NCBI RefSeq assembly: GCF_004348985.1
Contig: NZ_SMKW01000033.1
Span: 1-64,000, forward strand
Direction: 5' to 3'
DNA from: Saccharopolyspora elongata
GTDB lineage: Bacteria; Actinomycetota; Actinomycetes; Mycobacteriales; Pseudonocardiaceae
DNA length: 64,000 nt
Made by a program: the position numbers and the translations under genes. Below are positions 7,303 to 63,143 of the stretch, in pieces. The notes below the pieces were generated by a model. That model was not told where the DNA came from. It searched no databases and saw nothing but the letters and a program-made list of their open reading frames with translations. How positions within the stretch are numbered: the first letter of the stretch is position 1; each line of letters opens with the position of its first letter.

Positions 7303-7334
7303 TGGCCGTTCGAGCGGGGGCGCCCCGATGTGGA

Positions 7335-8321
7335 TCAGGCGCGGCCGTCGAAGAGGCTGGTGACCGAGCCGTCCTCGAAGACCTGGTGGATCGCCTCGGC
7401 GACCAGCGGGGCGATCGACAGGACCGTCAGGTTCGGGAACCGGCGCTCCTCCGGGATCGGCAGCGTGTTGGTCAGCACGACCTCCTTCGCGCCGCAGGAC
7501 GACAGCCGCTCCACCGCCGGGCCGGACAGCACCGCGTGGGTGGCCGCGATGATGACGTCCTTCGCGCCCGCCGCCAGCAGCTGCTCGGTGGCCTTGGTGA
7601 TCGTGCCGCCGGTGTCGATCATGTCGTCGACCAGCACGCACAGCCGGCCCTCGACGTCACCGACGACGCGGTTGGCGACCACCTGGTTGGGCTTGCTGGG
7701 GTCGCGGGTCTTGTGGATGAACGCCAGCGGCGTGCCGCCGAGGTCGTCGGCCCACTTCTCCGCCACCCGGACCCGGCCCGAGTCGGGGGAGACCACGGTG
7801 ATCTGCTCGCCCGCGTAGGTGTCGCGCATGTAGCTGGCCAGCAGCTTCTGGGCCATCAGGTGGTCCACCGGGCCGTCGAAGAAGCCCTGGATCTGATCGG
7901 TGTGCAGGTCCACCGCCATGATCCGGTCCGCGCCGGCGGTCTTGAACAGGTCCGCCATCAGCCGCGCCGAGATCGGCTCGCGGCCCTTGTGCTTCTTGTC
8001 CTGGCGGGCGTAGCCGTAGAACGGCATGACCACGGTGATGCGCTTGGCGCTGGCGCGCTTGAGCGCGTCCACCATGATCAGCTGTTCCATGATCGCGTCG
8101 TTGAGCGGGTTGCAGTGCGACTGGATGACGAACGCGTCGCACCCGCGAACCGACTCGTCGTAGCGCACGAAGATCTCGCCGTTGGCGAACTTGTAGGCAG
8201 CCTGGGGCGTGACCGTTACGTCGAGCTGCTTGGCCACCTCCTCGGCAAGTTCCGGGTGACTGCTGCCGGAGAAGAGCTTCAGGCTCTTCTTCGGAGTCGC
8301 AGACATCGCACTCACGGTCAT
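7335..8321 (-). CDS. prs: Ribose-phosphate pyrophosphokinase (PRPP synthase)
   Basis: A 328-residue cytosolic enzyme that makes PRPP from ribose-5-phosphate and ATP, feeding purine, pyrimidine, His, Trp, NAD and decaprenyl-phosphoryl-arabinose pathways. Visible motifs are LKLFSGSSHPELAEEVA, the ATP-binding flexible loop YARQDKKHKGREPISA, the DLHTDQIQGFF metal-binding segment, and the PRPP loop VLVDDMIDTGGT. The ATG at 8321 is preferred because GGGGAGG lies about 6 nt upstream; an internal ATG at 8306 is possible. It is directly downstream of glmU (23-nt gap), an operon shared with mycobacteria. Confidence 0.97.
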   Translation of the reverse strand: MTVSAMSATPKKSLKLFSGSSHPELAEEVAKQLDVTVTPQAAYKFANGEIFVRYDESVRGCDAFVIQSHCNPLNDAIMEQLIMVDALKRASAKRITVVMPFYGYARQDKKHKGREPISARLMADLFKTAGADRIMAVDLHTDQIQGFFDGPVDHLMAQKLLASYMRDTYAGEQITVVSPDSGRVRVAEKWADDLGGTPLAFIHKTRDPSKPNQVVANRVVGDVEGRLCVLVDDMIDTGGTITKATEQLLAAGAKDVIIAATHAVLSGPAVERLSSCGAKEVVLTNTLPIPEERRFPNLTVLSIAPLVAEAIHQVFEDGSVTSLFDGRA

Positions 8322-15636: not shown

Positions 15637-15791
15637 GCGCACAGTGTGACACCGGCCATGCGGTGCGTTCGGGTCGTCGCATTCGTGTCGCACCGGAGTC
15701 GTAGTCTGGAACGCGTCGCCCCTGCGGTCTCGGCGTTCGTCCCGGGCAGGGGTGTGCCCGCATTCGCCATGTCTTGCTGCGAGGTAGCTCC

Positions 15792-18700
15792 ATGAGCCAG
15801 GCCGGTCCCCTGCGCGGACTGCTCGAAATCGTGCTGCGCGATCCCGCCATCCGGCAGGTCGTGGCGGCGGCCGGGCGTCCGCGCCTGGTGCTGGAAGGCC
15901 CTGTCGCGGCCCGGTCGCTGACCGCCGGCGCGCTGGCCGCCGAGGGTGGTGCCGGGCGGCCGGTGCTGCTGGTCACCGCCACCGGTCGGGAGGCGGAGGA
16001 GGCCGCGGCGGCGCTGTCGGACCTGCTCGGCCCGGTCGGCATCGAGGTGTTCCCGTCCTGGGAAACCCTGCCACACGAACGACTTTCGCCCCGCGCCGAC
16101 ACCGTGGGCCGGCGGCTTTCGGTGCTGCGCCGCCTCGCGCATCCCGAGGAGCACGCGCACGGCGCCGTCCAGGTGCTGGTGACCACGGTGCGCAGCCTGA
16201 TCCAGCCGATCGCGCCCGGGCTCGGCGAGCTGGCGCCGGTGCGGCTCGCGGTCGGCGTCGAGCACGACTTCGAGGAACTCGTCGAGCGGCTCGCGTCGCT
16301 GGCCTACGACCGGGTCGACATGGTCGAGAAGCGCGGCGAGTTCGCGGTGCGCGGCGGCATCGTCGACGTGTTCCCGCCGACCGAGGAACACCCGCTGCGG
16401 GTGGAGTTCTGGGGCGACGAGGTCACCGAGATCCGCCCGTTCGCCGTCGCCGACCAGCGCTCGCTCGCGGACTCGCAGAGCACCGAGCTGTTCGCCCCGG
16501 CCTGCCGGGAGCTGCTGATCACCGAGCAGGTCGCCGAGCGCGCCGCGAAGCTCGCCGAGCAGCACCAGACCGACACGCACCTCGCCGAGATGCTGGAGAA
16601 GATCGCCGGCGGTGCCCCGGTGGAGGGCATGGAGGCGCTGATCCCGGCGCTGTGCGAAGGCGAGATGCGGCTGCTGACCGACCTGGTCCCGGCGGGCACG
16701 CACGTGCTGCTCGCCGACCCCGAGAAGATCCACGCCCGCGCCGCCGACCTGGTGCGCACCGGCCAGGAGTTCCTGGAGGCCTCCTGGATGGTCGCCGCCG
16801 ACGGCGGCAAGGCGCCGATCGACCTGGGCGCCTCGGCCTACCGCAGCCTCGCGGAGGTCGCCGAGCACACCCGCTCGCTCGACCTGCCGTGGTGGCCGCT
16901 GACCCAGCTGACCAGCGAGGAGGGCGAGGACGACGACGAGGTCATCCGGCTCGTCCTGAAGCAGGTCGACGCCTACCGCGGTGAGATCGAGCGAGCCTTC
17001 GCCGACCTGCGGGCGCACACCGCCGCCGGCGGCGCGGCGGTGCTGGTGCTGGCCGGTGCGGGCACCGCCCAGCGCGCGGTGCAGCAGCTGCGCGAAGCGG
17101 AGCTGCCCGCGCGGCTGGCCGAGGACGGCCTGGCGGCGGAGCCGGAAGCCGGCGTGGTGACGGTGGTGCGCGGCGGGCTGGAGGACGGCTTCGCGGCGCC
17201 CGGGATCGCGCTGGTGGTGCTCACCGAGGCCGACCTGACCGGCGGCCGGGGCGGCACCTCCACGAAGGACATGCGCCGGATGCCGTCGCGGCGGCGCAAC
17301 GCGGTCGACCCGCTGGCGCTCAAGAACGGCGACTTCGTGGTGCACGACCAGCACGGCATCGGCAAGTACGTGGAGATGGTGCAGCGCACCGTCGCCGGTG
17401 CGACCCGCGAGTACCTGGTGCTGGAGTACGCGGCGAGCAAGCGCGGCCAGCCCGGCGACCGGCTGTTCGTGCCGACCGACCAGCTCGACGAGGTCACCCG
17501 CTACGTCGGCGGCGAGGCGCCGGCGCTGAGCAGGCTCGGCGGCTCGGACTGGAAGAACACCAAGGCCAAGGCGCGCAAGGCGGTCAAGGAGATCGCCGCC
17601 GAGCTGGTGCAGCTGTACGCGGCCCGGCAGTCCTCGCCCGGGCACGCCTTCGGCGGGGACACGCCGTGGCAGCGGGAGCTGGAGGACGCCTTCCCCTACA
17701 CCGAGACCGGCGACCAGCTGGCCGCCATCGACGAGGTGAAGGCCGACATGCAGCGCCCGGTGCCGATGGACCGGGTGATCTGCGGCGACGTCGGTTACGG
17801 CAAGACCGAGATCGCGGTGCGCGCGGCGTTCAAGGCGGTGCAGGACGGCAAGCAGGTCGCCGTGCTGGTGCCGACGACGCTGCTCGCCCAGCAGCACCTG
17901 AACACCTTCACCGACCGGATGCGGTCGTTCCCGGTGGCGGTCAAGGGCCTGTCCCGGTTCACCGACCCGATGGAGTCCGAGGAGACCATCAAGGGCCTGG
18001 CCGACGGCGCGGTCGACATCGTGATCGGCACGCACCGGCTGCTGCAGACCGGGATCCGCTACAAGGACCTGGGCCTGGTGATCGTCGACGAGGAGCAGCG
18101 CTTCGGCGTCGAGCACAAGGAGCACATCAAGGCCCTGCGGACGCACGTGGACGTGCTGACCATGTCGGCGACGCCGATCCCGCGGACGCTGGAGATGAGC
18201 ATGGCGGGCATCCGGGAGATGTCGACCATCCTCACCCCGCCGGAGGAGCGGCACCCGATCCTGACCTACGTCGGCGCCTACGACCAGAAGCAGGTCGCCG
18301 CCGCGATCCGGCGCGAGCTGCTGCGCGACGGCCAGGTGTTCTTCGTGCACAACCGGGTGCACGACATCGAGAAGGTCGCGCGCCAGCTGCGGGAACTGGT
18401 GCCGGAGGCGCGGATCGTCACGGCGCACGGGCAGATGAACGAGGACCGGCTGGAGAAGATCATCCAGGGGTTCTGGGAGCGCGAGCACGACGTGCTGGTG
18501 TGCACCACGATCGTCGAGACCGGCCTGGACATCTCCAACGCGAACACGCTGATCGTGGACCGCTCCGACCTGCTCGGCCTCGCCCAGCTGCACCAGCTGC
18601 GCGGCCGCGTCGGGCGGGCGCGGGAGCGCGGCTACGCCTACTTCCTGTACCCGCCGGAGAAGCCGCTGACCGACACGGCGCACGACCGGCTGGCGACCAT

Positions 18701-46355: not shown

Positions 46356-47126
46356 GTGCCAGAAACGACCTCCCGGCTGATCGACAACCCCATCGACGAC
46401 CCCTCCGCCGCGGCCCCGGGGGCCGCCGACCTGGCCGGCCTGGACGAGCTGGTCACCCGCTGCACGGCCTGCCCGCGGCTGGTCGAGTGGCGGGAGGAGG
46501 TCGCGCGGGTCAAGCGCGCGGCGTTCCGCGACCAGGAGTACTGGGGCCGGCCGGTGCCCGGCTTCGGCCCGCCGGACGCGGCGATCGCGATCGTCGGGCT
46601 GGCGCCGGCGGCGCACGGCGGCAACCGGACGGGCCGGATCTTCACCGGCGACCGCTCCGGCGACGTCCTCTTCCAGGCGCTCTACGACGTCGGCCTGGCG
46701 TCCCAGCCCGAGGCGTGGCACATCGACGACGGTTTGACGTTGCACAGCACCAGGATCACGGCGCCGGTGCACTGCGCCCCGCCCGCCAACAAGCCGACGC
46801 CGGCGGAGCGCGACACCTGCCGCCCGTGGCTGGTCCGCGAGCTCGACCTGCTGCGCCCGACGCTGCGAGCGGTCGTGGTGCTGGGCGCGTTCGGCTGGCA
46901 GGCCCTGCTGCCGGTGCTGGCGGACGCGGCCTGGCAGGTCCCGAAGCCGCGCCCTAAGTTCGGCCACGACGCCCACGCGGAACTCCCGGCCACGGACGGA
47001 GGAGCACCCCTCCACCTCCTCGGCTCCTACCACGTCAGCCAGCAGAACACTTTTACGGGCAGGCTCACCCCGGCGATGCTGCGGGCGGTGCTGGAGCGGG
47101 CGAAGGGGCTGGCGGAGCTTCGGTGA
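46356..47126 (+). CDS. udgB: Family 5 uracil-DNA glycosylase UdgB
   Basis: A 256-residue Fe-S cluster DNA repair enzyme that excises uracil and other deaminated bases. The cysteines begin with RCTACPRLVEWREE and continue with CAPPANKPTPAERDTC. Motif A is GLAPAAHGGNRTGRIFTGDRSGD, and the C-terminal motif is GSYHVSQQNTFTGRLTPAMLR. The GTG at 46356 abuts GGGAG, so the exact start is uncertain. Its last ~87 bp recur at 48019 and 49289, marking the gene end as an integration target. Orthologue of M. tuberculosis Rv1259 by family. Confidence 0.93.
   Translation: MPETTSRLIDNPIDDPSAAAPGAADLAGLDELVTRCTACPRLVEWREEVARVKRAAFRDQEYWGRPVPGFGPPDAAIAIVGLAPAAHGGNRTGRIFTGDRSGDVLFQALYDVGLASQPEAWHIDDGLTLHSTRITAPVHCAPPANKPTPAERDTCRPWLVRELDLLRPTLRAVVVLGAFGWQALLPVLADAAWQVPKPRPKFGHDAHAELPATDGGAPLHLLGSYHVSQQNTFTGRLTPAMLRAVLERAKGLAELR
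47031..47117 (+). other. udgB 3'-end repeat, copy 1 (in gene)
   Basis: The stretch from CACGTCAGCCAGCAGAACAC to the end of the penultimate helix of UdgB. It is the functional copy of a direct repeat also present at 48019-48104 and 49289-49376. It most likely marks an attachment site in the 3' end of udgB. Confidence 0.8.
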
Positions 47127-47198
47127 ATGGGGTCATGGCGAGTGCAGCAACTCATCCTCAAGTTCCGTGTCCTGCGCACGTGACCCATCGGACTGGCT

Positions 47199-47734
47199 CT
47201 AGTAGGTCTTCAAGCCAAGGTTCTTCTGCAGTGCCCCTGCCTGCTCAGCAGTGGCGAGGACCATTGTGTCGTCGTAGATGCCGTGGTTCTCGCGTTTGAA
47301 GCTGACGCGGCGGAACGCGCGATGGCGTTGCAGGCTGCCGCCGGGTCGTAGTAGTCATCCGAGAGGTGTTCGGCCGGGATCGATACGAGCTGGCCGTTCC
47401 GTTCGAACTCCAGGACGTCGTAGCGGGATCCGTCGACGAATTCGCCTTCATGCAGCCGGACGCTGGTGACGGTGACTGCGCCGCGGGTGAGTGCGGCTGC
47501 CGCTTCCAGGAGGTCTTCGTAGCCTTCTTCCAGGTAGTCGATGTCTTCGGCGTGGACCGAGACCGCCACGTCGAAGGTTTCGAGGGCGCATGCGACGTTG
47601 TAGGGCGTCAGTTCGTCGTGCGCATAGTCGACGTATTCATCAAGGACGGTCTGCGCCTTTTCCTGCGGCACCATGCCGATCTCCTGAAGGACCATGACTA
47701 CACGTTCGTATGTCATCGATGAAGCGTTCGACAT
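47199..47734 (-). pseudogene. Frameshifted gene of unknown function
   Basis: The first ~140 codons read well (MTYERVVMVLQEIGMVPQEKAQTVLDEYVDYAHDELTPYNVACALETFDVAVSVHAEDIDYLEEGYEDLLEAAAALTRGAVTV...). After DPAAACNAIA the frame turns to low-complexity Ser/Thr/Ala. In the neighbouring frame the sequence continues sensibly as FRRVSFKRENHGIYDDTMVLATAEQ and ends in GLKTY-stop at 47199. One missing base near 47313-47322 (run cgcgc) explains this. Either real inactivation or a sequencing error. I do not recognise the family; it is acidic and cytosolic. It lies inside the first module between udgB-end repeats. Confidence 0.75.
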
Positions 47735-47746
47735 GGAGGCATCTTG

Positions 47747-47896
47747 TCAGCCGAGGGACTTCTTCGTGGCTGCATCCGAGAAATCGCCCCGCCGGCACGG
47801 GAAAACGTTCATCCCCCGGCGAGCTCGCCACGATCTCCTGCACACCCGGCAGATCCGGGTGTGCAGGTAGCCGCCCAGCCCATCCGGCTCGGTCAT
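47747..47896 (-). CDS. Short CxxC-containing ORF, probably a truncated remnant
   Basis: The 49 codons from ATG 47896 read MTEPDGLGGYLHTRICRVCRRSW..., and the same frame stays open upstream through VCTFCRLRHLGAEVDV, giving two CxxC pairs like a small zinc ribbon. The frame runs on into the udgB-end repeat at 48019, so the original start was probably lost at that junction. Too short for a firm family call. Confidence 0.4.
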   Translation of the reverse strand: MTEPDGLGGYLHTRICRVCRRSWRARRGMNVFPCRRGDFSDAATKKSLG

Positions 47897-48018
47897 CACA
47901 TCCACCTCGGCACCCAGGTGCCGCAGCCGGCAAAACGTACAGACTGGGGGCTCACCTGCGATGTTGCCGGATTTCCCCGGGCGAGCGAAGGCGGTGGCAG
48001 GACTTCCGTAAATCCGTT

Positions 48019-48104
48019 CACTTCAGCCAGCAGAACACTTTCACGGGAAAGCTCACGCCCGCGATGCTGCGGGACGTGCTGGAGCGGGCGAAGAAGCTGG
48101 CGGG
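48019..48104 (+). other. udgB 3'-end repeat, copy 2
   Basis: Aligns gap-free with 47031-47117; by hand I count about 11 mismatches in 87 positions. It could encode SQQNTFTGKLTPAMLRDVLERAKKL, but has no gene in front. The 17 bp just before it, TCCGTAAATCCGTTCAC (48005-48021), recurs with one change (TCCGTGAATCCGTTCAC) before copy 3 but is absent before copy 1, so the similarity with udgB begins abruptly. Confidence 0.85.
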
Positions 48105-48150
48105 GTATCTGACGCCTCACCGATGCGCTGCCGCGTCGAACCCTGATGGC

Positions 48151-48573
48151 CTAATTCGCGTACCAGGGATTCACGAGTTCGATGCCCGTCTCTTCGAAAT
48201 CCTTGGTATTGCGAGTGGCCAGTGTTGCCCGGCGTGCACGGCAGATCGCTGCGATTTGCGCATCAGCGGCGCTGATGGGGCGGCCGAGCCTCTCGCGTTC
48301 GCTGACCACGACGGCGTACTCGGCGGCAGCAGGCGCATCGAACGGCTCGACCCGCCCGTGGAAATCGTCGTTGATCAGCGCGTGAACTGCTGCGTTCAGC
48401 GACGTTTTCCGGTGTCCGTCGGGCAGTCGTGTCACGCCGTACAGCAGCTCGGCGGCAGTGATCGCTGTCGTTGCGACCTCTGCCGCAGGGAGCGAGTCAA
48501 GCCATGCCAGTACGTCGGCGTCTGGCGCTTGGCGAGTGACTTCTGACAGGACGTTGGTGTCGAGAATGATCAC
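48151..48573 (-). CDS. vapC: PIN-domain toxin (VapC/FitB type)
   Basis: A 140-residue PIN ribonuclease. MIILDTNVLSEV holds the first catalytic aspartate, AAELLYGVTRLPDG the conserved glutamate, and SAADAQIAAICRARRATLATRNTKDF the remaining acidic residues. It probably cleaves tRNA or rRNA when free of its antitoxin. Its start overlaps the antitoxin stop by 4 nt. It sits in the second module between udgB-end repeats. Confidence 0.92.
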   Translation of the reverse strand: MIILDTNVLSEVTRQAPDADVLAWLDSLPAAEVATTAITAAELLYGVTRLPDGHRKTSLNAAVHALINDDFHGRVEPFDAPAAAEYAVVVSERERLGRPISAADAQIAAICRARRATLATRNTKDFEETGIELVNPWYAN

Positions 48574-48815
48574 GAGTCGAAATCCGCCGCACGAGGAGGT
48601 TCGCTACGGGTGGGGAGTTCAAGTTCGGGCTCGCCGAGGCCAGCGAACCGGGCGTGGATGCGACTGCCCAGACCGCGGGAGGGCGGGGGCGGTGCCACGG
48701 CGGCTTGCAGGATCGCCCGGACCTCGGCTTCCATCGAGTGCCCGTGTTGCGCCGCTTGGACACGGAGTCGTGCGTGTGTCTCGTCGTCCAGACCGCGAAT
48801 CGTCAAGGTCGACAC
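48570..48815 (-). CDS. vapB: Antitoxin of the VapC/FitB toxin (FitA-like)
   Basis: An 81-residue Arc/ribbon-helix-helix protein: STLTIRGLDDETHARLRVQAAQHGHSMEAEVRAILQAAV is the FitA-type DNA-binding domain, followed by a Pro-rich linker and an acidic tail that should wrap the toxin. GTG 48815 follows a strong GGAGGAGG. An 8-bp palindrome TGCTAGCA (48853-48860), in the AT-richest part of the upstream region, is a candidate operator half-site. Confidence 0.9.
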   Translation of the reverse strand: MSTLTIRGLDDETHARLRVQAAQHGHSMEAEVRAILQAAVAPPPPSRGLGSRIHARFAGLGEPELELPTRSEPPRAADFDS

Positions 48816-48965
48816 GATGACTACCTCCTCCCAGTGCTGTCGTTGACTGCAATGCTAGCACTCGTGGGCGTCTCGGCGTACCTGCCACATCAAGGGTTTT
48901 GGCGGGGTTACGTGACCCGTTGCGGTTGATCCGGGCGCCATGGAGCGGCCTCTGGCATCACCAGA

Positions 48966-49205
48966 TCACTCGTCGTCCGGCTCCGGATCAGCGAAGAACT
49001 CAAGGTGAGAACACTTGCGACAACGGAATGCGGCAATCGGCAGCCGCCTCCTTCTCCGCAACTTGATCCCGCCGAACAGGGCGTGCTCCACAGGGCCCTC
49101 GACCCAGTGCGCCTGTCGATGCGATGCAACGTCCACGCTGTTCGGCAAGAAGCCTTGCTCCAGGTCGTTTGCCCCGCAGAAGGTGCATTTCAGATCCGTT
49201 GCCAT
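48966..49205 (-). CDS. Zinc-ribbon hypothetical protein
   Basis: A 79-residue protein with two CxxC knuckles, KCTFCGANDLEQGF near the start and FRCRKCSHLEFF near the end, flanking a basic middle (FGGIKLRRRRRLPIAA). Small zinc ribbons of this layout occur widely in actinobacteria without known function. ATG 49205 is taken from homology-like composition; the frame is open to 49244. It is the distal gene of the second udgB-repeat module, close to copy 3. Confidence 0.75.
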   Translation of the reverse strand: MATDLKCTFCGANDLEQGFLPNSVDVASHRQAHWVEGPVEHALFGGIKLRRRRRLPIAAFRCRKCSHLEFFADPEPDDE

Positions 49206-49288
49206 CCTGGAGAGGCTAGTGCCCGCCCGTACCACCCGGAGCATGAACGCCGCAATCGCGCGCTCGTCGGCGGATCCGTGAATCCGTT

Positions 49289-49376
49289 CACGTCAGCCAG
49301 CAGAACACCTTCACGGGAAGGCTGACCCCGGCGATGCTGCGCGGCGTTCTGGAGCACGCGAAGGAACTCGCGAGGG
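49289..49376 (+). other. udgB 3'-end repeat, copy 3
   Basis: A third, more diverged copy of the udgB gene end (CACGTCAGCCAGCAGAACAC is identical to copy 1 over its first 20 bp). It is preceded by the same 17-bp extension as copy 2. It may represent the displaced end of an ancestral udgB or the right end of the array. Confidence 0.82.
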
Positions 49377-49420
49377 TGGGGCGAGGTCCAGCATCTCCCA
49401 GGGCATAACGCTTGCCGTTA

Positions 49421-49437
49421 TTAACGTGCTACGTTAA
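49421..49437. promoter_or_regulatory. TTAACG-N5-CGTTAA operator of higBA
   Basis: A perfect dyad with 6-bp arms that ends 4 nt before the higB ATG. Its position over the start of transcription and translation, and the lack of a Shine-Dalgarno sequence, fit an autoregulatory HigA/HigBA operator on a leaderless or near-leaderless transcript. Confidence 0.75.
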
Positions 49438-49441
49438 GCTG

Positions 49442-49723
49442 ATGCTGCGATCTTTCGCTGACAAGGAGACCGAGCGTGTATGGCAACGGCGTCGTTCGCG
49501 GGTCCTCGACCCAAATGTCCAGCGGGCGGCTCTGCGCAAGCTCGCCATCCTTGACGCGGCGGAGACCGTGGAGGACCTGCGGGTCCCTCCGGGGAACCGG
49601 CTGGAGAAGCTGAATGGAGATCGAGCCGGTAAGTACAGCATTCGGATCAACCAGCAGTGGCGCATTTGCTTCGAGTGGACGCCGGCTGGTCCGGAGAACG
49701 TTGAGATCGTGGACTACCACTGA
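49442..49723 (+). CDS. higB: HigB/RelE-family mRNA interferase toxin
   Basis: A 93-residue toxin of the plasmid-maintenance killer group: MLRSFADKETERVWQRRRSRVLD, VQRAALRKLAILDAAETVEDLRVPPGNRLEKLNGDRAGKYSIRINQQWRICFEW, VEIVDYH. The conserved GKYSIRINQQWRICF strand and C-terminal DYH are family hallmarks. It would cleave mRNA on the ribosome. The toxin gene comes first, as is usual for higBA. ATG 49442 replaces an upstream in-frame start that would run through the operator. Confidence 0.94.
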   Translation: MLRSFADKETERVWQRRRSRVLDPNVQRAALRKLAILDAAETVEDLRVPPGNRLEKLNGDRAGKYSIRINQQWRICFEWTPAGPENVEIVDYH

Positions 49724-49734
49724 AGGGAACGAGG

Positions 49735-50034
49735 ATGTCTGACGAGTTCGTCATGCCTCCGGTTCACCCGGGGGAGGTCCTAGCTGAGGAGTACCTCGAA
49801 CCACTTGGTGTCACTCAACATCGACTGGCCGTCGCGATTGGGGTTCCGCCCCGTCGTATCAACGAGATCGTGCACGGCAAGCGTGGAATCTCGGCTGACA
49901 CCGCATTGCGGCTGGCGCGCTTCTTCGGTACGTCCGAGCGATTTTGGCTCAACCTCCAGTCGCGTTACGACCTGGAGCGGGAGAAGAATGCGCTCGCCGA
50001 CACGCTGGCTCGCATTCAGCCACTGTCTGCCTGA
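49735..50034 (+). CDS. higA: HigA antitoxin (XRE HTH)
   Basis: A 99-residue antitoxin with the HigA N-terminus PPVHPGEVLAEEYLEPLGVTQHRLAVAIGVPPRRINEIVHGKRGISADTALRLARFFGTSERFWLNLQSRYDLE. It binds HigB and represses the operon through the dyad at 49421. It starts 11 nt after higB, with GGGAACGAGG upstream. Confidence 0.94.
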   Translation: MSDEFVMPPVHPGEVLAEEYLEPLGVTQHRLAVAIGVPPRRINEIVHGKRGISADTALRLARFFGTSERFWLNLQSRYDLEREKNALADTLARIQPLSA

Positions 50035-55192: not shown

Positions 55193-55266
55193 GCCCCCGT
55201 AGCCCAACTGGCAGAGGCAGACGACTTAAAATCGTCCAAGTGTCGGTTCGAACCCGACCGGGGGCA
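55193..55266 (+). tRNA. Class I tRNA with anticodon TAA (would read UUA, Leu)
   Basis: 74 nt. Acceptor GCCCCCG/CGGGGGC; D arm GCC/GGC; anticodon stem GACGA/TCGTC around the 7-nt loop CTTAAAA (anticodon TAA); variable region only about 5 nt; T arm GTCGG-TTCGAAC-CCGAC; discriminator A; no encoded CCA. A canonical tRNA-Leu has a long class II variable arm, which is missing. An integrase remnant begins 108 bp downstream, so this gene is also the probable attachment site of the element. Confidence 0.85.
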
Positions 55267-55373
55267 CTAGTCCTCGCAGGTCAGTGACCTGGAGAGGCGT
55301 TTTCGGGGCTAGCGGGACGGTGGAGGTATCCATCGTCTACTCATCGCTTTGGTCCTCGGCAAGGGAGTCGGAG

Positions 55374-55804
55374 ATGGGTCGACCGCCCCTCCAGATCGGC
55401 ACTCGCGGCAAGATCAACACGACGCGGTTGGACGGTTGGACGACGTCGCCTGGCGGGCGCGCACGCGGTTCCGGGCCTTCGACGGCAAGACGCGGCTCGT
55501 CGAGCGCTCCGGCCCGACGGAGAAGCGAGCCGTCGAACGGTTGGAGTCGGCGATCGAGCAGCTGCAGAAGTCCAGGGCTCGGCTGACCGTCGACTTTAAA
55601 TTCCGTGACGTGGCGGGGGTATGGCTTGAGAAGGTCGCGCAGCGCCGGGCGGAGACGACCCGCGACAACTATGAGCAGACCCTGAAGAGGATTGTGCTCG
55701 ACCGGATCGGTGATCTGCGTCTGCGGGAGATCAGCGTTCCGGTCCTCGAGGAGTTCTTCGAGAAGCTGGAAGCGGACGGGTATTCGGCGGGCTACCGGCG
55801 ATCG
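55374..55804 (+). pseudogene. Tyrosine integrase, N-terminal fragment
   Basis: MGRPPLQIGTRGKINTTRLD starts in one frame and continues in another as DDVAWRARTRFRAFDGKTRLVERSGPTEKRAVERL..., the AP2-like arm-binding and core-binding domains. The frameshift is explained by a perfect 8-bp tandem duplication GTTGGACG (55427-55434 and 55435-55442); removing one copy restores TRLDDVAWRA. Homology stops at GYRRS (55804), so the catalytic domain is missing here. The C-terminal part is found at 61984-63143. Confidence 0.88.
55553..55804 (+). repeat. 252-bp direct repeat of integrase core, left copy
   Basis: From ATCGAGCAGCTGCAGAAG to GGCGATCG. It matches 61986-62237 at a constant offset of 6433 bp, with scattered mismatches and no gap. 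The two copies bound the lower-GC cargo region. Confidence 0.9.
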
Positions 55805-56354
55805 CTGTCAGCCTCCAGCGCACTGGACAGGGAAACGCCGCATCGTTTGCCATCCCTACGAATGGCGACACGACTTCCAGAACGTTGGCTTGGACTTGGA
55901 TGAGCAACTACGAGCCAAAGTCGCCGTCCGTCAGCACCTCAACGGTCCAGGCGCAGCTGCAACGTGTAACATCCAACAGCAGAAGCTTCAGATCGTGCGC
56001 GCTCCTCAAATCCACTGGCGCAGAGCCTGAAACCGCCTGTGGCTGACAGTCATTGGAAGCGCAGCAATGACAGCCCAACATCACAGAGTGTGACTATCTC
56101 TGTTGTGGTGACCGAGATCCGAATGGGCCGCTCTGGGATGGCGCTGTCGCCCCGATCTTGAGGCCGGGTATAGCTGACTCGCCGATATCTGTGAACAGCA
56201 TGATGTCTTTGCTGACGATGGCAAAAGGGTGAATCTATCAGTGCCTCAGGGCGTAGGCCTTGTCTAGCCCGTTCCGGGCTGACAACATGATCTCGAGCTG
56301 CGCGGACGCATTCTTGGCACTGACTGGGCAGATGCTGAAGAAATAGGAGAATTG
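55805..56354. other. Degenerate region between integrase fragment and cargo genes
   Basis: 550 bp without a convincing gene. Right after the integrase breakpoint one frame reads IVCHPYEWRHDFQNVGLDLDEQ...VAVRQHLNGPGAA... to a stop near 56030, possibly a decayed gene end that I cannot identify. TCACAGAGTGTGA (56081-56093) is a perfect 13-bp dyad. Base composition drops relative to the flanks. AGGAGA at 56345-56350 serves the next gene. Confidence 0.55.
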
Positions 56355-56849
56355 ATGGAAGCGGATCCATTGGGAACGGCATGGAAAATGCATGCTGCAC
56401 TTGTGGAATGGACAGGTAAAGCGGACCTTAAAGCATCATTCTCCTTGACTGTGCAGTCGGTGACGCTGGTTCTTATGGGGATTCTTACCAGTTCCGGTCG
56501 GTTAGCCATGGGATCCGGGTCTGGGGCTTCGCAGATCTTGCTGTGGGCAGGATTCCTACTCATGGCAGGGGGAGCTTCGTGTGCTGCGGTTACGATATCT
56601 CCCAATCTGCGCAAAGAGCGGAGAGGGCCGAATAAGAATGATGATTTCCTCTTCTTCGGCCACCTGCGCACCTGGGAACCAGGAGAGCTAGAGGCTGTAT
56701 TGCGGGAGACGGACCCTTTGCCAGCGTTGTCCCGGCAGTTGGTAGTCATGAGTGAAATTGCCTGGGTCAAACACCGCTGGGTGCAGTGGTCCTTCATCTT
56801 AGCAGTCGTCGGAGCTGCGACGCTCGGTGTCGGTGCTGTAGTTAGATAA
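56355..56849 (+). CDS. Pycsar-type transmembrane effector (DUF5706-like)
   Basis: A 164-residue membrane protein. AWKMHAALVEWTGKADLKASFSLTVQSVTLVLMGIL, then a second hydrophobic hairpin (ILLWAGFLLMAGGASCAAVTI), a loop NDDFLFFGHLRTWEPGELEAVL, and LSRQLVVMSEIAWVKHRWVQWSFILAVVGAATLGVGAVV. The W-x-x-KADLKAS opening, the ffGhlr motif and the helix L-x-x-Q-x-x-x-x-S-x-I-x-x-x-K before the last membrane segment match the Pycsar effector (PycTM) family as I know it. Such effectors damage the membrane when cyclic pyrimidine nucleotides accumulate. Noticeably lower GC than the chromosome. Confidence 0.78.
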   Translation: MEADPLGTAWKMHAALVEWTGKADLKASFSLTVQSVTLVLMGILTSSGRLAMGSGSGASQILLWAGFLLMAGGASCAAVTISPNLRKERRGPNKNDDFLFFGHLRTWEPGELEAVLRETDPLPALSRQLVVMSEIAWVKHRWVQWSFILAVVGAATLGVGAVVR

Positions 56850-56874
56850 GGCGGTAGCCAGAGAGGCTGGCAGG

Positions 56875-57555
56875 GTGAACTTTCGAGAAAAAGTTCCCGA
56901 TCAGGTTTGGCAAGATCTAATTCAGCGTAGCCAACGGCGGCTTTATCGGCGCGGCGTACCACTTCTGCGGCAGGGAGAATCGTCGACCTCGGTAATAGCC
57001 TTGACCGAGGGAACGGTGAAGGTAGTCCAATCCGTAGAGAGCGGTGAGACTCTTACGCTGATGCTCCGCGGCCCCGGAGAGGTTCTGGGGGAAATGGGAG
57101 CCATTTTGGATAGGCCTCGATCGGCTACGGTTAGCGCGGTCTCCGCGTGCGTTGGCCACGTAATGCCGGCTCATGCTTTCCGTGGGTTCATGGAGCGCCA
57201 TCGGCTAGCGGATACGGTCTACCAGTTGGCAGTGGATCGCATGCAGGAGATTGAACGGCTACGCGCTGATCTTGTGAGCCTGACACCAGCTGCGCGAATA
57301 GCGCGGGTGGTGCTCCACCTGGCTATGGAAATCGGGCGTCCGGGCAATGACGGAATTCTCGTGGAACTGGGAATTCCGCGCGATGAGTTGGCCGTAATGG
57401 CGGCGATGAGCCGCTCAGTTGCGGTTCCTCTGCTGAGCCAACTGCAAGGAGCGGGCATTCTGGGCCTCGGTCGTGGCCGCATCACAGTTAGAGACCTGGG
57501 CCGCCTCCGGATAGCTGCTACAGGCCGAGTAGAGCCAGATTACCCAGTGATGTGA
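56875..57555 (+). CDS. CRP/FNR-family cyclic-nucleotide-responsive regulator
   Basis: A 226-residue protein. The cNMP-binding domain has a phosphate-binding cassette GEVLGEMGAILDRPRSATVSAVS that keeps both the Gly-Glu and the Arg that contact ribose and cyclic phosphate in CRP. A long dimer helix follows, then a winged HTH (LTPAARIARVVLHLAMEIGRPG...IPRDELAVMAAMSRSVAVPLLSQLQGAGILGLGRGRITVRDLGRL). GTG start 25 nt after the effector gene. A CRP-like site overlaps its own stop codon and precedes the cyclase operon, suggesting feedback from the cyclic nucleotide to transcription. Confidence 0.88.
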   Translation: MNFREKVPDQVWQDLIQRSQRRLYRRGVPLLRQGESSTSVIALTEGTVKVVQSVESGETLTLMLRGPGEVLGEMGAILDRPRSATVSAVSACVGHVMPAHAFRGFMERHRLADTVYQLAVDRMQEIERLRADLVSLTPAARIARVVLHLAMEIGRPGNDGILVELGIPRDELAVMAAMSRSVAVPLLSQLQGAGILGLGRGRITVRDLGRLRIAATGRVEPDYPVM

Positions 57556-57566
57556 CGTTCCTCACT
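57551..57566. promoter_or_regulatory. Near-consensus CRP site TGTGA-N6-TCACT
   Basis: TGTGACGTTCCTCACT differs from the classical CRP/GlxR palindrome TGTGA-N6-TCACA only at the last base. It overlaps the crp-like stop codon (57553-57555) and lies about 100 bp before the cyclase start, in the only sizeable gap of the cargo cluster. Confidence 0.7.
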
Positions 57567-57664
57567 GCCGAAGCGTCCGGTTCTAGACGGAAAGGCCTGC
57601 CAAGACACGCCAAGGTATCCGCAGATCGGACTGGGAGCCACAGTCAAGTAAAGGGGAACTGACC

Positions 57665-58453
57665 ATGACGCCATCCTGGGAGACGCTATGGCCCTACCGC
57701 GCGGTGCTGGCAGTGGACGCGCGAGGTTTCAGCGCGCACACCAGCAAGACGATGCAGCAACTGAACGCAGACATCCAGCAGGTGCTGGCTCAGACGCTGT
57801 CTGCCATTGGCATGAGCGGCCGTTGGGAGCAGCGGATGTTCGGGCAGCACACGGGCGATGGGTACGTCGCCGGTCTTGAGCCGGAAGTTCTCCCTGGTCT
57901 GGTCGGATGTTTTCCGGAAGCTCTGCGACAGGTCTTGTCGGCATGGCGGAACGGCCATCCTGGCCAGCCCCCGCTACAGCTCCGGGTCAGCATCCATGTT
58001 GGCCCATTGCCAACCACTGGACTGGGTGTCCCTATGGTCCATACACATCGCCTACTGGACGATCAGGCTCTGAGAGATCTGCTGGCGCGGGCCAATCCGG
58101 AAGTCACCAATACGGTGATGATCATCTCCCAGCGAGTGTACGAGGACGTATTCCAAAGTGGCTGCGCGACCGGAGACACCCTCTCTAGCAACTTTTCCCG
58201 CCGCCTGGCAAGGGTCAAGACCTTTGAACAGCCGGCCTGGCTTCATGTGCCGGGCTTGGATTGGCGGCTCGCGGACCCTGCCATCTTCGAGACGCCCGAT
58301 GCCGAACCTGCCTCTGAGGCCTTGCCGGCGCCTTCGGCTTCAGTGAGTGCGACTGCCGCTCCGGGCAGTGTGACTTTCACTCAGCACGGTCCCTACAGCA
58401 TTTCGGGCTACTCGCAGAACATCAACAACACCTTCGGGGGGAATGGCAGGTGA
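57665..58453 (+). CDS. Class III nucleotidyl-cyclase-like protein
   Basis: 262 residues. YRAVLAVDARGFSAHTSKTM resembles the first cyclase strand with metal ligand Asp18. FGQHTGDGYVAGLEP has the GD motif with Asp65. LQLRVSIHVGPLPTTG matches the (l)R-x-x-I-H-x-G strand. So both metal aspartates of a class III (PycC-like) cyclase are in place, although overall similarity is remote. The C-terminal ~40 residues are a Pro/Ala/Ser linker plus the tag TQHGPYSISGYSQNINNTFGG, which resembles a segment of the next protein. ATG with AAGGGGAA upstream. The stop overlaps the next start (GTGA). Confidence 0.72.
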   Translation: MTPSWETLWPYRAVLAVDARGFSAHTSKTMQQLNADIQQVLAQTLSAIGMSGRWEQRMFGQHTGDGYVAGLEPEVLPGLVGCFPEALRQVLSAWRNGHPGQPPLQLRVSIHVGPLPTTGLGVPMVHTHRLLDDQALRDLLARANPEVTNTVMIISQRVYEDVFQSGCATGDTLSSNFSRRLARVKTFEQPAWLHVPGLDWRLADPAIFETPDAEPASEALPAPSASVSATAAPGSVTFTQHGPYSISGYSQNINNTFGGNGR

Positions 58454-61017
58454 ACAGCGGTAACTACCGTGACGAGACTACGGGGAACACGCCTTTAGAA
58501 GGGCAGCAGCTGGAGGCTGGCACGAAAGGTGACGGCGATCGGTTTCGAAATAGCTGGTGGCCGCTGAAACGGAACCAATCCTTCCGTGATGCTCCAGAGC
58601 ATTCCGATCAGCAGCCCGTGCCGCAGCGTTCAGAGATCGGCGCATCGGGCCTGGAGGGTTCGTACCCGAGGGGCGACTTTCCTGCCACGCCGAACGAGCA
58701 TCCCCAAGCGCTGACCTCCGCATCGCACAACACCATTGGGGAGGACGACGACCTCACCGCCTTCGGTGTGCATGCGGCACAGCCAGCACAATCTCAGGAA
58801 GAGGCTGCTTCCGATCCTGGGAACGAAAGGCCAACGCATGGCCCTCATTGGGCTCCGAACCGGGCATTCAGTGCCGAGAGAGCTGACTGGTCAGATTCAC
58901 GGCATTTTAGCCCGCTTGAGCCGGCAGAAGATGGCGAGAAGCGAAACCCATCGCAGCCTTCCGTAGCCATGGAAAATGGTCTCGCATCGGTCGGCCCGGA
59001 GATATCTCTGGGAAACTCCGGACAAGGTGAGTCGTGCTCGGCTGATCAAGCCAGCGGGCAAGTCAACGCCCAACAAGATGTTGAGGGCCGCCCATCAAAG
59101 GTGCCGACACATGTCTCATTTTTTTCCCAAGGAAATGGTTCGGGTCCCACTCATCAGGCCTTCAATCAGAACGTCAACAACTACTGGAAAGCGGATTTCG
59201 TCAGGAAGATTCCCGTTCCGGCCGCCGGCCTCGAAGCATGCTCCGATCGGCGCTTTGTGGAGCCGCGACAGGCTGGCCAGCTGGCAGACGCGGCCAGGGC
59301 TCTTGAGCTTCACGGCGTAGTAGTCCTTAAGGCGCCACCTGGCAATGGTCGTCGTACGGCGGCGCTGAGACTGCTGGCGACTCTGCGATCCGTCCGTGAG
59401 CCGCTGGCGCTTTTCGATCTTGAGCCCGAATGGTCCAAGCCCAGTGTCGAGTTGCTACCCAAGACCGTGGGTGAGGGCTACGTGCTCGATCTTTCGGAGT
59501 TCCCAGAGGGCGAGCCGGACGATCGCTTCGGTCGCGACTTGGCCAACTACGGCGCTGACGATAACCAAAAGGGCTGGTTCCTGGTAGTCCTCGCGAGCCC
59601 ACAACATTGGAAGGGTTCTTGGTTCGAACCTACTTCCAATTTAACAGTGAGCCTGTCGTCGCCGGACGCGAAGCCGCTGGTTGAGCGCGAACTGTCGGCA
59701 CGATCGTGCTTCGATCGCGTGGAGTGGCTTGCGCAGCCTGCCTTTGAGGAGATTTGGCGATCCAACCCGTCCGCCCAGGAGGCCCGCCGCCTCGGACGCA
59801 TCATCGCCAACGCGGATCACCAGAACCTGCAAAAAATCGTAGATGAGTTCAAAGGCTGGCACGATCACATCGAAATGCTCCTGAATAAAGAGCCTAAAGG
59901 CCAAGGGCATCCCAGCCTTCTCTCTACCCGAGCCACGGTGTGGGCTGGTGCGCTGCTCCACGGAGGACAGTCCCGATCAGTCCTCAAGGCTGCGGACGCG
60001 TTGCTGGAGACACTGGAAATTTCGCGCACGCCGGCAGAGGTACTGGCGGACGCCACGTCGTCGCGCCGTCTGCAGGCCGCCAGCCTGAGCCTACGGGGCG
60101 ACCAGGCGTTCCATCAGGAGGACAAACACGACCTCGCACATGCCATTCTGCAGAATCTCTGGGAGGAGTTTCCCACCCAACGTGAGCTTCTTCGTTCGTG
60201 GGCGGTATCGGTAGCAGCGGACCCGTCGATCCCCGATGAGGACGCCGAACTGATCACAAAGATGTTGCTGCGCCTCTCGACAGCCCGTCGCGATGGCGAC
60301 ATCTTGGATAGCATTGGCTCAGGGATTGTCGGTCGACGCCGTCCCTTGGCTGTCGAGGCTTTGACCGATGCGGCGCTCGATCCGCAGATCGGTGCCTATG
60401 TCAGAAATCGTCTCTATTTGTGGGCTAAGCAGGGCAAAGAGGAGAGTGAGACGCTCAAACTTGTCGCAGAGGTCTGTGGCGGGCGGTTAGGCGAGGAACT
60501 CCCTGAGATAGCCTTGACGCGACTCCGTTGGGTCGCGGGACGCGCTCCTCTCGGGTCCCGGACGGTCGCTGATGCGTTCAGCTGCCTCGTGACGACCCGG
60601 CCCGATGAAGTCCGCAAGGCAATGGATACCTGGTTTGACAACGACAAGCTGAAGTGGCAAGCGTTTGTCGTGTTTCTTGCGCTCGCATCCAGTGATCCCG
60701 GCATCGAATTTCTTCTCCAAGGTGTCGAGGATGCAAATGGTCGTCGGCGCTTCGTCGCGGGATGGCAATGGCTACTGGCCCAGGAAGCGGATAGGGAGGT
60801 TGTGAATCGCCAACTGGACAAGTGGGAGAAGCGCGCGGAACAGGGGAGTCTGTCGCGAGAGCTGCTGATCGATTTGTTTGCTGATGTGTACGAACCGGAG
60901 ATTTACCGTGGCGGGCTCAACCGATTCTTCTCCGACACCCGCGACTTTTTCAGGTCTTTCTGGGGTCAGGTTCTGGACGAGGCAATTTATCGCAACCGTC
61001 GTCGTCGTGAAGGGTGA
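58450..61017 (+). CDS. Large P-loop (STAND-like) protein with disordered N-terminus
   Basis: 855 residues. Residues 1-220 are polar, low-complexity and probably disordered. HVSFFSQGNGSGPTHQAFNQNVNNYW (221-246, in pieces) is the tag shared with the cyclase. VVLKAPPGNGRRTAALRLLATL (290-312) is a Walker A-like loop with Arg-Arg where Lys is usual. GYVLDLSEFPEGEPDDRF and GWFLVVLAS could be Walker B and sensor strands. The rest is long helical repeats with no recognised enzyme. It may be a nucleotide-gated scaffold or effector. GTG start overlaps the cyclase stop; its own stop overlaps the next start. Confidence 0.7.
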   Translation: MNSGNYRDETTGNTPLEGQQLEAGTKGDGDRFRNSWWPLKRNQSFRDAPEHSDQQPVPQRSEIGASGLEGSYPRGDFPATPNEHPQALTSASHNTIGEDDDLTAFGVHAAQPAQSQEEAASDPGNERPTHGPHWAPNRAFSAERADWSDSRHFSPLEPAEDGEKRNPSQPSVAMENGLASVGPEISLGNSGQGESCSADQASGQVNAQQDVEGRPSKVPTHVSFFSQGNGSGPTHQAFNQNVNNYWKADFVRKIPVPAAGLEACSDRRFVEPRQAGQLADAARALELHGVVVLKAPPGNGRRTAALRLLATLRSVREPLALFDLEPEWSKPSVELLPKTVGEGYVLDLSEFPEGEPDDRFGRDLANYGADDNQKGWFLVVLASPQHWKGSWFEPTSNLTVSLSSPDAKPLVERELSARSCFDRVEWLAQPAFEEIWRSNPSAQEARRLGRIIANADHQNLQKIVDEFKGWHDHIEMLLNKEPKGQGHPSLLSTRATVWAGALLHGGQSRSVLKAADALLETLEISRTPAEVLADATSSRRLQAASLSLRGDQAFHQEDKHDLAHAILQNLWEEFPTQRELLRSWAVSVAADPSIPDEDAELITKMLLRLSTARRDGDILDSIGSGIVGRRRPLAVEALTDAALDPQIGAYVRNRLYLWAKQGKEESETLKLVAEVCGGRLGEELPEIALTRLRWVAGRAPLGSRTVADAFSCLVTTRPDEVRKAMDTWFDNDKLKWQAFVVFLALASSDPGIEFLLQGVEDANGRRRFVAGWQWLLAQEADREVVNRQLDKWEKRAEQGSLSRELLIDLFADVYEPEIYRGGLNRFFSDTRDFFRSFWGQVLDEAIYRNRRRREG

Positions 61018-61727
61018 GCAGAGCACCAATGTGGAACCTGCGGCGCTATCCGTGGACGCGCGTTGCGTGCACATGGCAGTCCAACCTTCCGGGAGTCCGT
61101 TTCGTTGCCACGGGCAGACTGGCGTACGCGCCCTCAGCGGAGCTGCGTGAGAAAGGCCGCGCTGCAGGGCGGGCGGCTGCAAGGTTGGCACTCGACGCTG
61201 CCGCCAGTGCTATCACTTCTCGACACTCACCGGCCCAGTTTCAGGTAGCTCAAGAGGAGTTGGCGCTGGCTTTCGCGCGATGGACCGAAGTCGATGGCCA
61301 CCCCCACCTGAAGGTGAAGGCCCGTATCGCCCTGGGCCTCACCCCGGACGATCGCGCTCGTGCACAATCGTTTGAGGATGCACGGCGTGAGGAACGTCTT
61401 CGACAAGAAATCCATCGCGAGCGGCTGATACACCTTCGCGATGCTGTGTTCGCCGACCCAGTCCTGGCACGATCCTGGTGGCTTGATCGCCAGAGAAATG
61501 CGCTCATCCAGATGTCTTGGAGGGACTTCAACGAGAAGGTTCTTTCGTCGGTTGGGGCTGTGGATGACACCCACTCCCGGGCGATGCGAGTTGCTCACGT
61601 GCTGGCCGGGGTCATGGAAGACCTCGGAACCGACCCAGGGCGGCAGAAGCAGTTCATCGCGACCGCCCGCGTGGTCCTGGAACAGATGGGTTGGAATTCC
61701 ACTGCGGAGAAGCTGCCGCAGGATTAG
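61014..61727 (+). CDS. Helical partner protein of unknown function
   Basis: A 237-residue protein starting at the GTG that overlaps the previous stop. The first ~45 residues look beta-rich (WTRVACTWQSNLPGVRFVATGRLAYAPS); the rest is helical and charged (REKGRAAGRAAARLALDAAASAI, RAQSFEDARREERLRQEIHRERLIHLRDAVFADPVLARSWWLDRQ, HSRAMRVAHVLAGVMEDL). No signal or membrane helix. I do not recognise the family. The tight coupling implies it works stoichiometrically with the P-loop protein. Confidence 0.7.
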   Translation: MSRAPMWNLRRYPWTRVACTWQSNLPGVRFVATGRLAYAPSAELREKGRAAGRAAARLALDAAASAITSRHSPAQFQVAQEELALAFARWTEVDGHPHLKVKARIALGLTPDDRARAQSFEDARREERLRQEIHRERLIHLRDAVFADPVLARSWWLDRQRNALIQMSWRDFNEKVLSSVGAVDDTHSRAMRVAHVLAGVMEDLGTDPGRQKQFIATARVVLEQMGWNSTAEKLPQD

Positions 61728-61983
61728 TCACCGTCCCGCGGCCGAGTCGAGGTCTGCCAGGGCAGCCTCCAGCGGACGTAGGCCGGGGATGCTGAGCACT
61801 GATGGCGTCAGCGGCGAAGGTATCTGGTGAGCTTGGGAAGTCCGGATTATGTCGACGACAACCATCGCTTATCCATGGTTTATGGCCCGCTGCCCGGCGT
61901 GGTGAGCCGCGATGAGTCACATGGCGAGATTGGTATCGCCGCAGCTCAGCGCGATCAGGTACGCTGCAGCACGGCAAGCTCTG

Positions 61984-63143
61984 GAATCGAGCAGCTGCAG
62001 AAGTCCCGGGCTCGACTGACCGTCGACTTCAGGTTCCGTGACGTGGCTGAGGTATGGCTGGGCAAGGTCGCGCAGCGCCGAGCGGCGACGACCCGCGACA
62101 CCTATGAGCAGACCTTGAAGAGCGTCGTGCTCGACCGGATCGGCGACCTGCGTCTGCGGGAGATCAGCATTCCGGTCCTAGAAGAGTTTTTCGAGAAGCT
62201 CGAAGCGGACGGGTATTCGGCGAGCTACCGGCGATCGGTCCGCACGACCGTCCGGGGCACCCTCCAGGTGGCCGTTCGCTATGGGCTGCTGGGCAGCAAT
62301 CCGGTGCGGGAGGTCAGCCCGATCGAGGGCCGTCCGCGGAAGGTCCGCACGCTCACCACGGACGAGAGGCGTCGGCTGTTCGAGGGCATGGACAGGTTCG
62401 TCGTCGAGAGCTGCTACTCCAGCGGGTCGGATCTCCCGGACCTCGTCCGGTTCCTGCTTGGGACCGGCTGCCGCATCGGAGGAGCCGTGGCGGTGCGGTG
62501 GAAGGATGTCAATCTCACCGACAAACCCGTGGTCGTTGATGGCACGGAAATTCCGCCATGCTCAGTCTGGATCAACGGCAACATCGTCAACGTCAAGGGC
62601 AAGGGTTTGGTCCGGCACAACGGCAAGACGGAGAACGCCGTCCGCATGGTTGCCCTGCCCGAGTTCGTTGTCACGATGCTGACGGTGCGGTGGCTCATTG
62701 TGTGATCGGCAGCCCAGGCGGAGCGGCTCCGTGTGGACCCGCGCGGGACGCTCGACCAGGCGGACAGGCAGGAGCATCCGGCTGGGGGAGCGGAGGGCAC
62801 TGTTCAGGTCGAGCGCGGCCAGGCGTTCATGGCCGACCGTCTCGAGGAGTCTGTGTTCCCGTCCCGAACGCTGGGGTGGAAGAACCCGAACAACGTGCGG
62901 CGCGGCTGGCGAGTGATCCGGGAGGCGATCGGTCTCGGGTGGGTCACGCCGCACGTGTTCCGGAGGACGGCTGCCACTCTGCTCGATGATGCGAAGCTGA
63001 CCGCACGTCAGATCGCCGACGTCTTGGGCCATTCCCGGCCGTCGATGACCCAGGACCACTACTTGGGGCGTGGATCGGTCCATCCGGCAGCTGCAGCTGC
63101 CCTAGACTCCGCCTTCCGGCAAGCGAGCAGGATGCCGCTGTGA
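61984..63143 (+). pseudogene. Tyrosine integrase, C-terminal fragment with in-frame stop
   Basis: It begins inside the core-binding domain (IEQLQKSRARLTVDFRFRDVAEVWLGKVAQRR), then has the catalytic domain: first Arg in LLGTGCRIGGAVAVRW; HVFRRTAATLLDDAKLTARQIADVLGHSRPSMTQDHYLGRG holds the HxxR, His and Tyr nucleophile. A TGA at 62703-62705 interrupts the frame after VTMLTVRWLIV, and the same frame resumes and ends normally at 63143. The N-terminus is missing; its counterpart is at 55374-55804. Not functional as it stands. Confidence 0.88.
61986..62237 (+). repeat. 252-bp direct repeat of integrase core, right copy
   Basis: Partner of 55553-55804 (offset 6433 bp). The upstream 258 bp (61728-61985), after the last cargo gene, has no recognisable gene. 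Confidence 0.9.

Follow-up and report, generated by a model that had tools for sequence, protein, structure and literature searches.

The locus described here is a five-gene island at positions 56355-61727 of a 64,000-nt window of Saccharopolyspora elongata (GCF_004348985.1, contig NZ_SMKW01000033.1); the window is the whole stretch of DNA that was analysed, and all positions are numbered on it. Five open reading frames (ORFs), g1 to g5, run in the same direction (+) in the ORF list of the window, and the g3/g4 and g4/g5 pairs each share a GTGA overlap. They encode a PycTM-family membrane effector (g1), a CRP-family regulator (g2), a protein modelled as a class III nucleotide cyclase (g3), a STAND/AAA+-like protein (g4) and a conserved partner (g5). 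These five genes are a conserved actinobacterial module. We consider it somewhat probable (about 0.6) that it is a horizontally moved, immune-type operon in which the STAND protein gates the cyclase, PycTM is the output and CRP provides local feedback.

Gene content and conservation of the island

A collection of genome contigs was scanned with the cyclase alignment alone and the best 80 of 82 confirmed loci were kept; all 80 are actinobacterial by record title. Fetched loci carry L-numbers, with L002-L019 (n=18) as the close set. Neighbouring genes were scored by tblastn with the five window proteins and then with hidden Markov models (HMMs) made from the loci's own members; gene calls in the fetched loci came from a simple script using GC (guanine plus cytosine) position. 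In the close loci g2, g4 and g5 were each present in 18/18 and g1 in 16/18, being absent from L013 and L017 (tblastn), which is the co-occurrence that the original prediction had expected. Direct tblastn matches over the 80 loci numbered 75 for g2, 48 for g4, 20 for g5 and 18 for g1, and with family HMMs the STAND protein was found in 72 and PycTM in 53; since sequences within subfamilies are related these counts overstate independence, which the cluster permutation given below corrects in part. The more constant core is CRP, cyclase and STAND, with PycTM less constant. A chance neighbourhood was considered and ruled out: in loci retrieved with the cyclase as the sole query, the other genes lie next to it. 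The loci lacking a STAND HMM match are L022, L028, L032, L048, L049, L051, L074 and L077. CRP is absent in L023, L025, L035, L056 and L077; the cyclase of L035 begins 186 bp into the locus, so that its upstream side is out of view.

The g3 protein (57665-58453, +; 262 amino acids) gave an AlphaFold2 model with a mean predicted local distance difference test score (pLDDT) of 87.6, and of at least 90 at 192/262 residues. This model matches class III cyclases (Foldseek, VIA), BcPycC among them, and on its strength we are confident that g3 has a class III cyclase fold. Its conserved residues are D18, D65, R129 and K185; the metal-binding Asp18 is present in 71/71 rows with a letter at that place, and Asp65, Arg129 and Lys185 in 72/72 cyclases, so both metal aspartates asked of a Pycsar cyclase stand on a class III fold. 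None of g3, g4 and g5 reached a curated Pfam or NCBIfam cut-off or gave anything convincing in PADLOC, and the PADLOC PycC models matched 0/72 family cyclases at E<=1, the window protein included. The base position is Lys in adenylyl and Glu in guanylyl cyclases; in g3 it is Gln61. Base-contact residues vary between clades, and they do not identify the product. Matches of single family members to ZorA, NsnC and CATASP were judged to be due to chance.

The g4 protein (58450-61017, +; 855 amino acids) has an NTPase domain at about amino acids 243-472 followed by a mostly helical part to amino acid 855, and the AlphaFold2 model of amino acids 225-855 has a mean pLDDT of 90.5. It is this order, an AAA+ NTPase fold and then superstructure repeats, by which it resembles STAND proteins. 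Its best match among the PADLOC and family models is nSTAND3 (E=0.016); its VIA list consists mostly of AAA+ proteins, where the absence of a given STAND proves nothing. The intact Walker A lysine of STAND proteins is lacking, the motif being the degenerate GNGRRT (amino acids 298-303), and this lysine is found in 0/68 STAND sequences of the family, which have Arg (58), Ala (5), Ser (4) or Leu (1) instead. The g5 protein (61014-61727, +; 237 amino acids) belongs to a cluster that hhalign relates to the genes at the same place in three other clusters, clearly for two of them (E 4e-16 and 5e-12) but with a weak score for the last (E 5e-5). A likeness of g5 to SPFH/band-7 proteins is an impression by eye; there was no curated Pfam match, and the hits of a PDB sequence search were short and weak (best E 0.005).

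The g1 protein (56355-56849, +; 164 amino acids, with an alternative TTG start at 56352) matches Pfam PF18967 (E=2.4e-19) and PADLOC PycTM (E=5.2e-34) and has hydrophobic segments at amino acids 61-79 and 145-163. Excerpts of PMC11224242 give PycTM the role of an effector in abortive infection. Three PycTM clusters occur among the loci, two upstream of the CRP gene and a third mostly downstream of the cyclase; in L023 and L025, both without CRP, the third lies just upstream of the cyclase. This third cluster is related to the other two (hhalign, E 2e-13 and 4e-8) and passes the PF18967 cut-off (7e-15, 9e-13), which both tested members of the second cluster miss (2.4e-5, 0.64). The PycTM of L078 is 62% identical to that of the window and its cyclase just 26%; this is a sign of effector exchange, and suggests that PycTM is exchangeable between loci.

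The g2 protein (56875-57555, +) carries the cNMP_binding (PF00027) and HTH_Crp_2 (PF13545) domains, the cassette and helix-turn-helix (HTH) that together mark the CRP/FNR family. Its cassette residues are G72, E73, R82, S83 and A84, and over 75 aligned CRPs G72 is present in 75/75, E73 in 72/75, R82 in 74/75 and A84 in 75/75. The same protein is matched by the PADLOC PycTIR (E=8.4e-9) and PycC (E=1.1e-5) models; automatic annotation may mistake the CRP for a Pycsar part and miss the true cyclase.

Much of the original prediction is borne out by these results. It had described five genes in one direction with the last three joined by GTGA, a DUF5706/PycTM-like g1, a CRP-family g2 with an intact cassette and a cyclase-like g3 with Asp18 and Asp65; the ORFs, domain matches and conserved pocket agree, and the structure check that it proposed for the 262-residue protein returned class III cyclases. 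The 855-residue P-loop protein that it named has the length and an NTPase fold, but the P-loop itself is degenerate.

The motif shared by the cyclase tail and the STAND protein

The C-terminal tail of g3 carries the motif SVTFTQHGPYSISGYSQNINNTFG (amino acids 235-258; 58367-58438, +), and a matching motif, HVSFFSQGNGSGPTHQAFNQNVNNYW, is found in the N-terminal region of g4 (amino acids 221-246; 59110-59187, +). The cyclase tail motif recurs directly ahead of the NTPase in the adjacent STAND protein, for instance in L008 (VSFSHTGEHGIQAYN on the cyclase, VRFSHSGEHGIQAYN on the STAND). Other subfamilies have another motif that is again alike on both proteins, as in L026 (NSGAVAWNNSAGGDFNQSV and NSGAVATGNTIGGDLNQYV), L027 (GNLNTGTVHGGQSVAN and GNFNSGAVHGGQRVHN) and L075 (SRLIQVGRDY and ARVTQVGRDY), the cyclase tail being given first in each pair. 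The cyclase tail and the pre-NTPase STAND motif change together between subfamilies.

This likeness was quantified. In 60/70 loci the 110 amino acids preceding the NTPase domain give the tail a better score than the remainder of the STAND does, and in 45/70 the match outscores 200 shuffles at p<0.01. Permutation of partners between clusters gave p<=0.0004 with 8 clusters and 0/5000 with 17, and when seven window-type cyclase tails were compared with seven STAND regions p was 0.0035 (2000 column shuffles). Third codon positions of identical motif residues agree in 61% of cases against 50% expected from codon usage, and the likeness therefore appears to be kept mainly at the protein level; a recent DNA duplication behind the shared motif is, by the same figures, not favoured. 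The STAND protein probably activates the cyclase via the shared motif.

The g2-g3 promoter and the mobility of the island

Between g2 and g3 lie a CRP-type site A, TGTGA-N6-TCACT (57551-57566), which overlaps the g2 stop codon; site B (57573-57590), where the palindrome that relatives have, CCGTCCA-N4-TGGACGG, is degenerate; and the -10-like element CAAGGT (57611-57616, +), placed at the family's conserved spacing. While CCGTCCA-N4-TGGACGG is the form of the palindrome for the window clade, a distant clade has GTGCCCA-N4-TGGGCAC. The strict core of the palindrome is present in 44/78 g2-g3 regions, against a mean of 1.0 and a maximum of 4 in shuffles. Spacings were counted over 49 palindrome rows, namely 47 loci and two second, probably spurious rows (L062, L067), with the window excluded. 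A hexamer nAnnnT lies exactly 18 bp past the palindrome 22-mer in 45/49 rows, and in at most one at any other shift from -8 to +8; the rows without it are the two spurious ones and those of L022 and L024. Likewise GTG-N8-CAC is centred exactly 23 bp upstream of the palindrome in 41/49 rows, and in at most one at any other shift; 34 of the 41 sites read GTGA-N6-[TG]CAC. In the window the first half of this site shares letters with the stop codon of the CRP gene, and this overlap may explain part of its conservation. The window keeps site A and CAAGGT at the family spacings.

By the usual numbering from the -10 box the palindrome is centred at about -41.5, which we take to be the class II CRP position. 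The exact palindrome stands at the locus in 4/7 whole genomes, with two other sites in all, and in 6/6 whole genomes of a further set, with one other site; the remaining three genomes of the first set carry imperfect local copies (L003, L004, L019). In L023 and L025, which have no CRP match, the palindrome is absent as well. No shared palindrome was found upstream of g1, where the commonest exact dyad occurs in 3/17 regions. Like other CRP/FNR regulators, g2 has a cyclic-nucleotide pocket, an HTH and a GTGA-N6-TCAC site in the promoter of this operon; it differs from them in a second palindrome that is specific to the subfamily and rare among the genomes searched, which points to local and not global control. 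Given the fixed spacings between the CRP-type site, this rare palindrome and the -10-like element, the CRP is probably a dedicated local feedback regulator of the cyclase operon and not an independent second arm.

The gene cluster has a GC content of about 0.56-0.63 in 1-kb windows, against 0.64-0.71 in the left flank and 0.65-0.67 in the right. Two copies of a 252-bp direct repeat of integrase 5' sequence, 90% identical, bracket it: the left copy (55553-55804, +) is the 5' part of an integrase remnant, spanned by an ORF at 55349-55903 with a Phage_int_SAM_3 match, and the right copy (61986-62237, +) lies within a broken integrase at 61827-63143. The low GC and the integrase remnants had both been noticed in the original prediction. 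A tRNA-Leu (taa) gene adjoins the island (55193-55267, +; ARAGORN). The host genome has a single g3 match at E<=0.001. The closest relatives of g3 were found in Streptomyces sp. VNUA116 (84% identity), S. sioyaensis (80%) and three further records (84-86%), whereas 51/150 related genomes had any g3 match, the best by E-value being just 42% identical. On account of this difference, 42% for the best hit in related genomes against 84% in Streptomyces sp. VNUA116, the island was presumably gained recently by horizontal transfer. The cyclase is present in 7 plasmid records; the phage records searched for it gave no match. In the plasmid copy of Streptomyces sp. NBC_00055, independent annotation names a 'Pycsar system effector' and a 'Crp/Fnr regulator' followed by hypothetical proteins, and an N-6 DNA methylase and an endonuclease VII-domain protein are encoded close by.

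Several further features of these loci were seen. The NBC_00055 copy (L112:9783-13286) has an IS701 transposase gene between two hypothetical genes at the STAND place and may be broken. In L018 g1-g2 are on the strand opposite to g3-g5, with palindrome-core copies at both ends (about 6462 and 7908) of 6462-8001; the arrangement looks like an inversion running through the two copies. L039 holds an additional CRP-cyclase pair, diverged and on the opposite strand (14764-16140), and L027 and L029 have another STAND-cluster gene about 4.3 kb past the cyclase. Two Nocardiopsis loci without a STAND match (L048:8710-10551 and L049:8773-10455) encode a predicted membrane protein after the cyclase with an N/G-rich stretch near its C-terminus, and in three Saccharopolyspora loci (L020, L022, L051) a conserved protein of 887-955 amino acids with about ten hydrophobic segments is encoded downstream of the cyclase. 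In the window a further GC dip (0.62-0.64) is found at 47000-50000, about 6 kb to the left of the island.

Proposed mechanism, alternatives and known systems

The reading that we favour, by analogy, is that the operon would work like Pycsar crossed with an NLR/BASS signalosome. In this scheme the helical part of g4 would detect an invader or damage and g4 would then assemble, and its N-terminal motifs would seed or capture the same type of motif on the g3 tail, either by cross-beta (BASS-like amyloid) templating or by a similar homotypic contact. The contact would gather cyclase subunits, as a class III dimer requires, and the assembled g3 would produce a cyclic mononucleotide. This messenger would open g1, the pore-type PycTM effector, harming the membrane and stopping the infection, and would also bind the g2 CRP at about -41.5 on the cyclase promoter, where it most likely activates the cyclase-STAND-g5 operon, giving positive feedback; g5 would be a conserved accessory. 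The defence role, the cyclase product, amyloid formation and the sign of the feedback are all parts that we infer. The most specific form of the scheme, amyloid-gated messenger immunity in which a site-degenerate NLR-like STAND, prion-like tail templating, PycTM opening and CRP class II self-amplification are combined, is tentative and on balance somewhat doubtful. That a nucleotide could feed both an effector and a transcription factor had been suggested in the original prediction; with a conserved CRP pocket and co-occurring PycTM this is plausible, but the CRP looks local and not like a second arm.

A number of observations weigh against this scheme. The place of the transition-state Asn is taken by Val in 38/72 cyclases, that of the window among them, and is Asn in 33; cyclase activity could thus be reduced or changed. 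NTP-driven assembly of the STAND is doubtful, because its Walker A has no Lys. The STAND core scores as high as the pre-NTPase region or higher in 10/70 loci, and p<0.01 is missed in 25/70, which include 9/18 tested in the window clade, the window counted, and 12 of the L058-L073 group; for the window itself the single-pair test gave p=0.09. The pairing test at 45% clustering, with 2 clusters and no power, gave p of about 0.5. Further, 34/78 promoter regions are without the strict palindrome core and the window, with its degenerate site B, is one of them, while some of the 34 show related imperfect palindromes. Finally, no PycTM was seen in 27/80 loci.

This last count, together with a CRP more constant than PycTM, would fit a regulatory or developmental switch in which the STAND-triggered nucleotide acts mainly via CRP and PycTM serves as a tuning or stress channel; the hosts, by record title, are actinobacteria, which have complex development. 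No regulon is visible, however, as the exact palindrome is almost confined to the locus in the 13 genomes searched, and the patchy, mobile spread (an integrase-flanked island, the plasmid records and the identities of 42% against 84%) and the abortive-infection role given to PycTM in excerpts of PMC11224242 also argue against a switch, which we regard as unlikely. The Val at the transition-state place in the window clade and a Gln61 that is neither Lys nor Glu could alternatively mean that the cyclase has weak catalysis or none and serves as a nucleotide-binding adaptor, with the STAND signalling to the effector from protein to protein. The invariance of Asp18, Asp65, Arg129 and Lys185 and the cyclic-nucleotide cassette retained by the neighbouring CRP make this distinctly unlikely.

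It could also be that the locus is simply Pycsar, a cyclase and PycTM linked by a cyclic pyrimidine, with CRP, STAND and g5 as dispensable passengers. The g1 protein does belong to the PycTM family, a PycTM-like ORF is present in 53/80 loci and BcPycC is among the structural matches of the cyclase; yet CRP (75/80) and STAND (72/80) are more constant than PycTM, no family cyclase is matched by the PycC models, the cyclase tail and STAND motif co-vary and the promoter architecture is conserved. We consider this improbable, and the least probable of the readings. The Pycsar-likeness seen in the original prediction holds for the cyclase fold and for an effector of the PycTM or PycTIR kind, here PycTM, beside the cyclase, and extends to an abortive-infection logic (excerpts of PMC11224242), but the cyclase lies outside the PADLOC PycC models and has a motif-bearing tail, and five conserved genes, including CRP, STAND and g5, take the place of two. 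The operon was not filed under Pycsar, since it has more than two genes and no PycC model matches its cyclase.

The STAND-gated reading can be set beside two further groups of systems. In the NLR/BASS systems, as described in excerpts of PMC7889193, a STAND-type gene adjoins an effector gene, and a short motif at the C-terminus of the effector recurs in the N-terminal region of the STAND; the motifs fall into many families, and filamentous actinobacteria are among the hosts. The matching motif at an effector C-terminus and in the adjacent STAND N-terminal region is the same here, a likeness at the level of sequence. The effectors reviewed in those excerpts are Bell, CHAT and TIR, unlike the nucleotide cyclase of this operon, and the word 'cyclase' is found nowhere in the main text of PMC7889193, PMC8086366 or PMC12261475. 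The nearest published idea seen is that of the EAD/iSTAND2 ternary systems, where, according to excerpts of PMC8195603 and PMC7159879, an infrequent cyclic nucleoside monophosphate (cNMP) cyclase is joined to an adaptor domain matching the iSTAND2 N-terminus and CRP-like factors are linked to AP-ATPase systems. Those ternary systems are of the MoxR-vWA type and have EAD or death-like domains, in contrast to the short tail motif, CRP-cyclase core and PycTM found here, and a domain library scan of the five island proteins gave no MoxR or vWA match. The five-gene set is undescribed among the literature matches listed; an earlier mention is possible in Tal 2021, Dyrka 2020 or Burroughs and Aravind 2020, the last of which reportedly concerns cyclic-mononucleotide immune systems.

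The subfamilies of this operon provide a ready set for swaps of motif specificity. Here the genome itself appears to pair a cyclase with a STAND sensor through an excisable motif, which bears on how infection switches on Pycsar cyclases. If the proposed reading is correct, this would be a bacterial immune alarm of a new design, one in which NLR-type amyloid signalosomes are joined to cyclic-nucleotide signalling and in which a transcriptional feedback, absent from two-gene Pycsar, is added.
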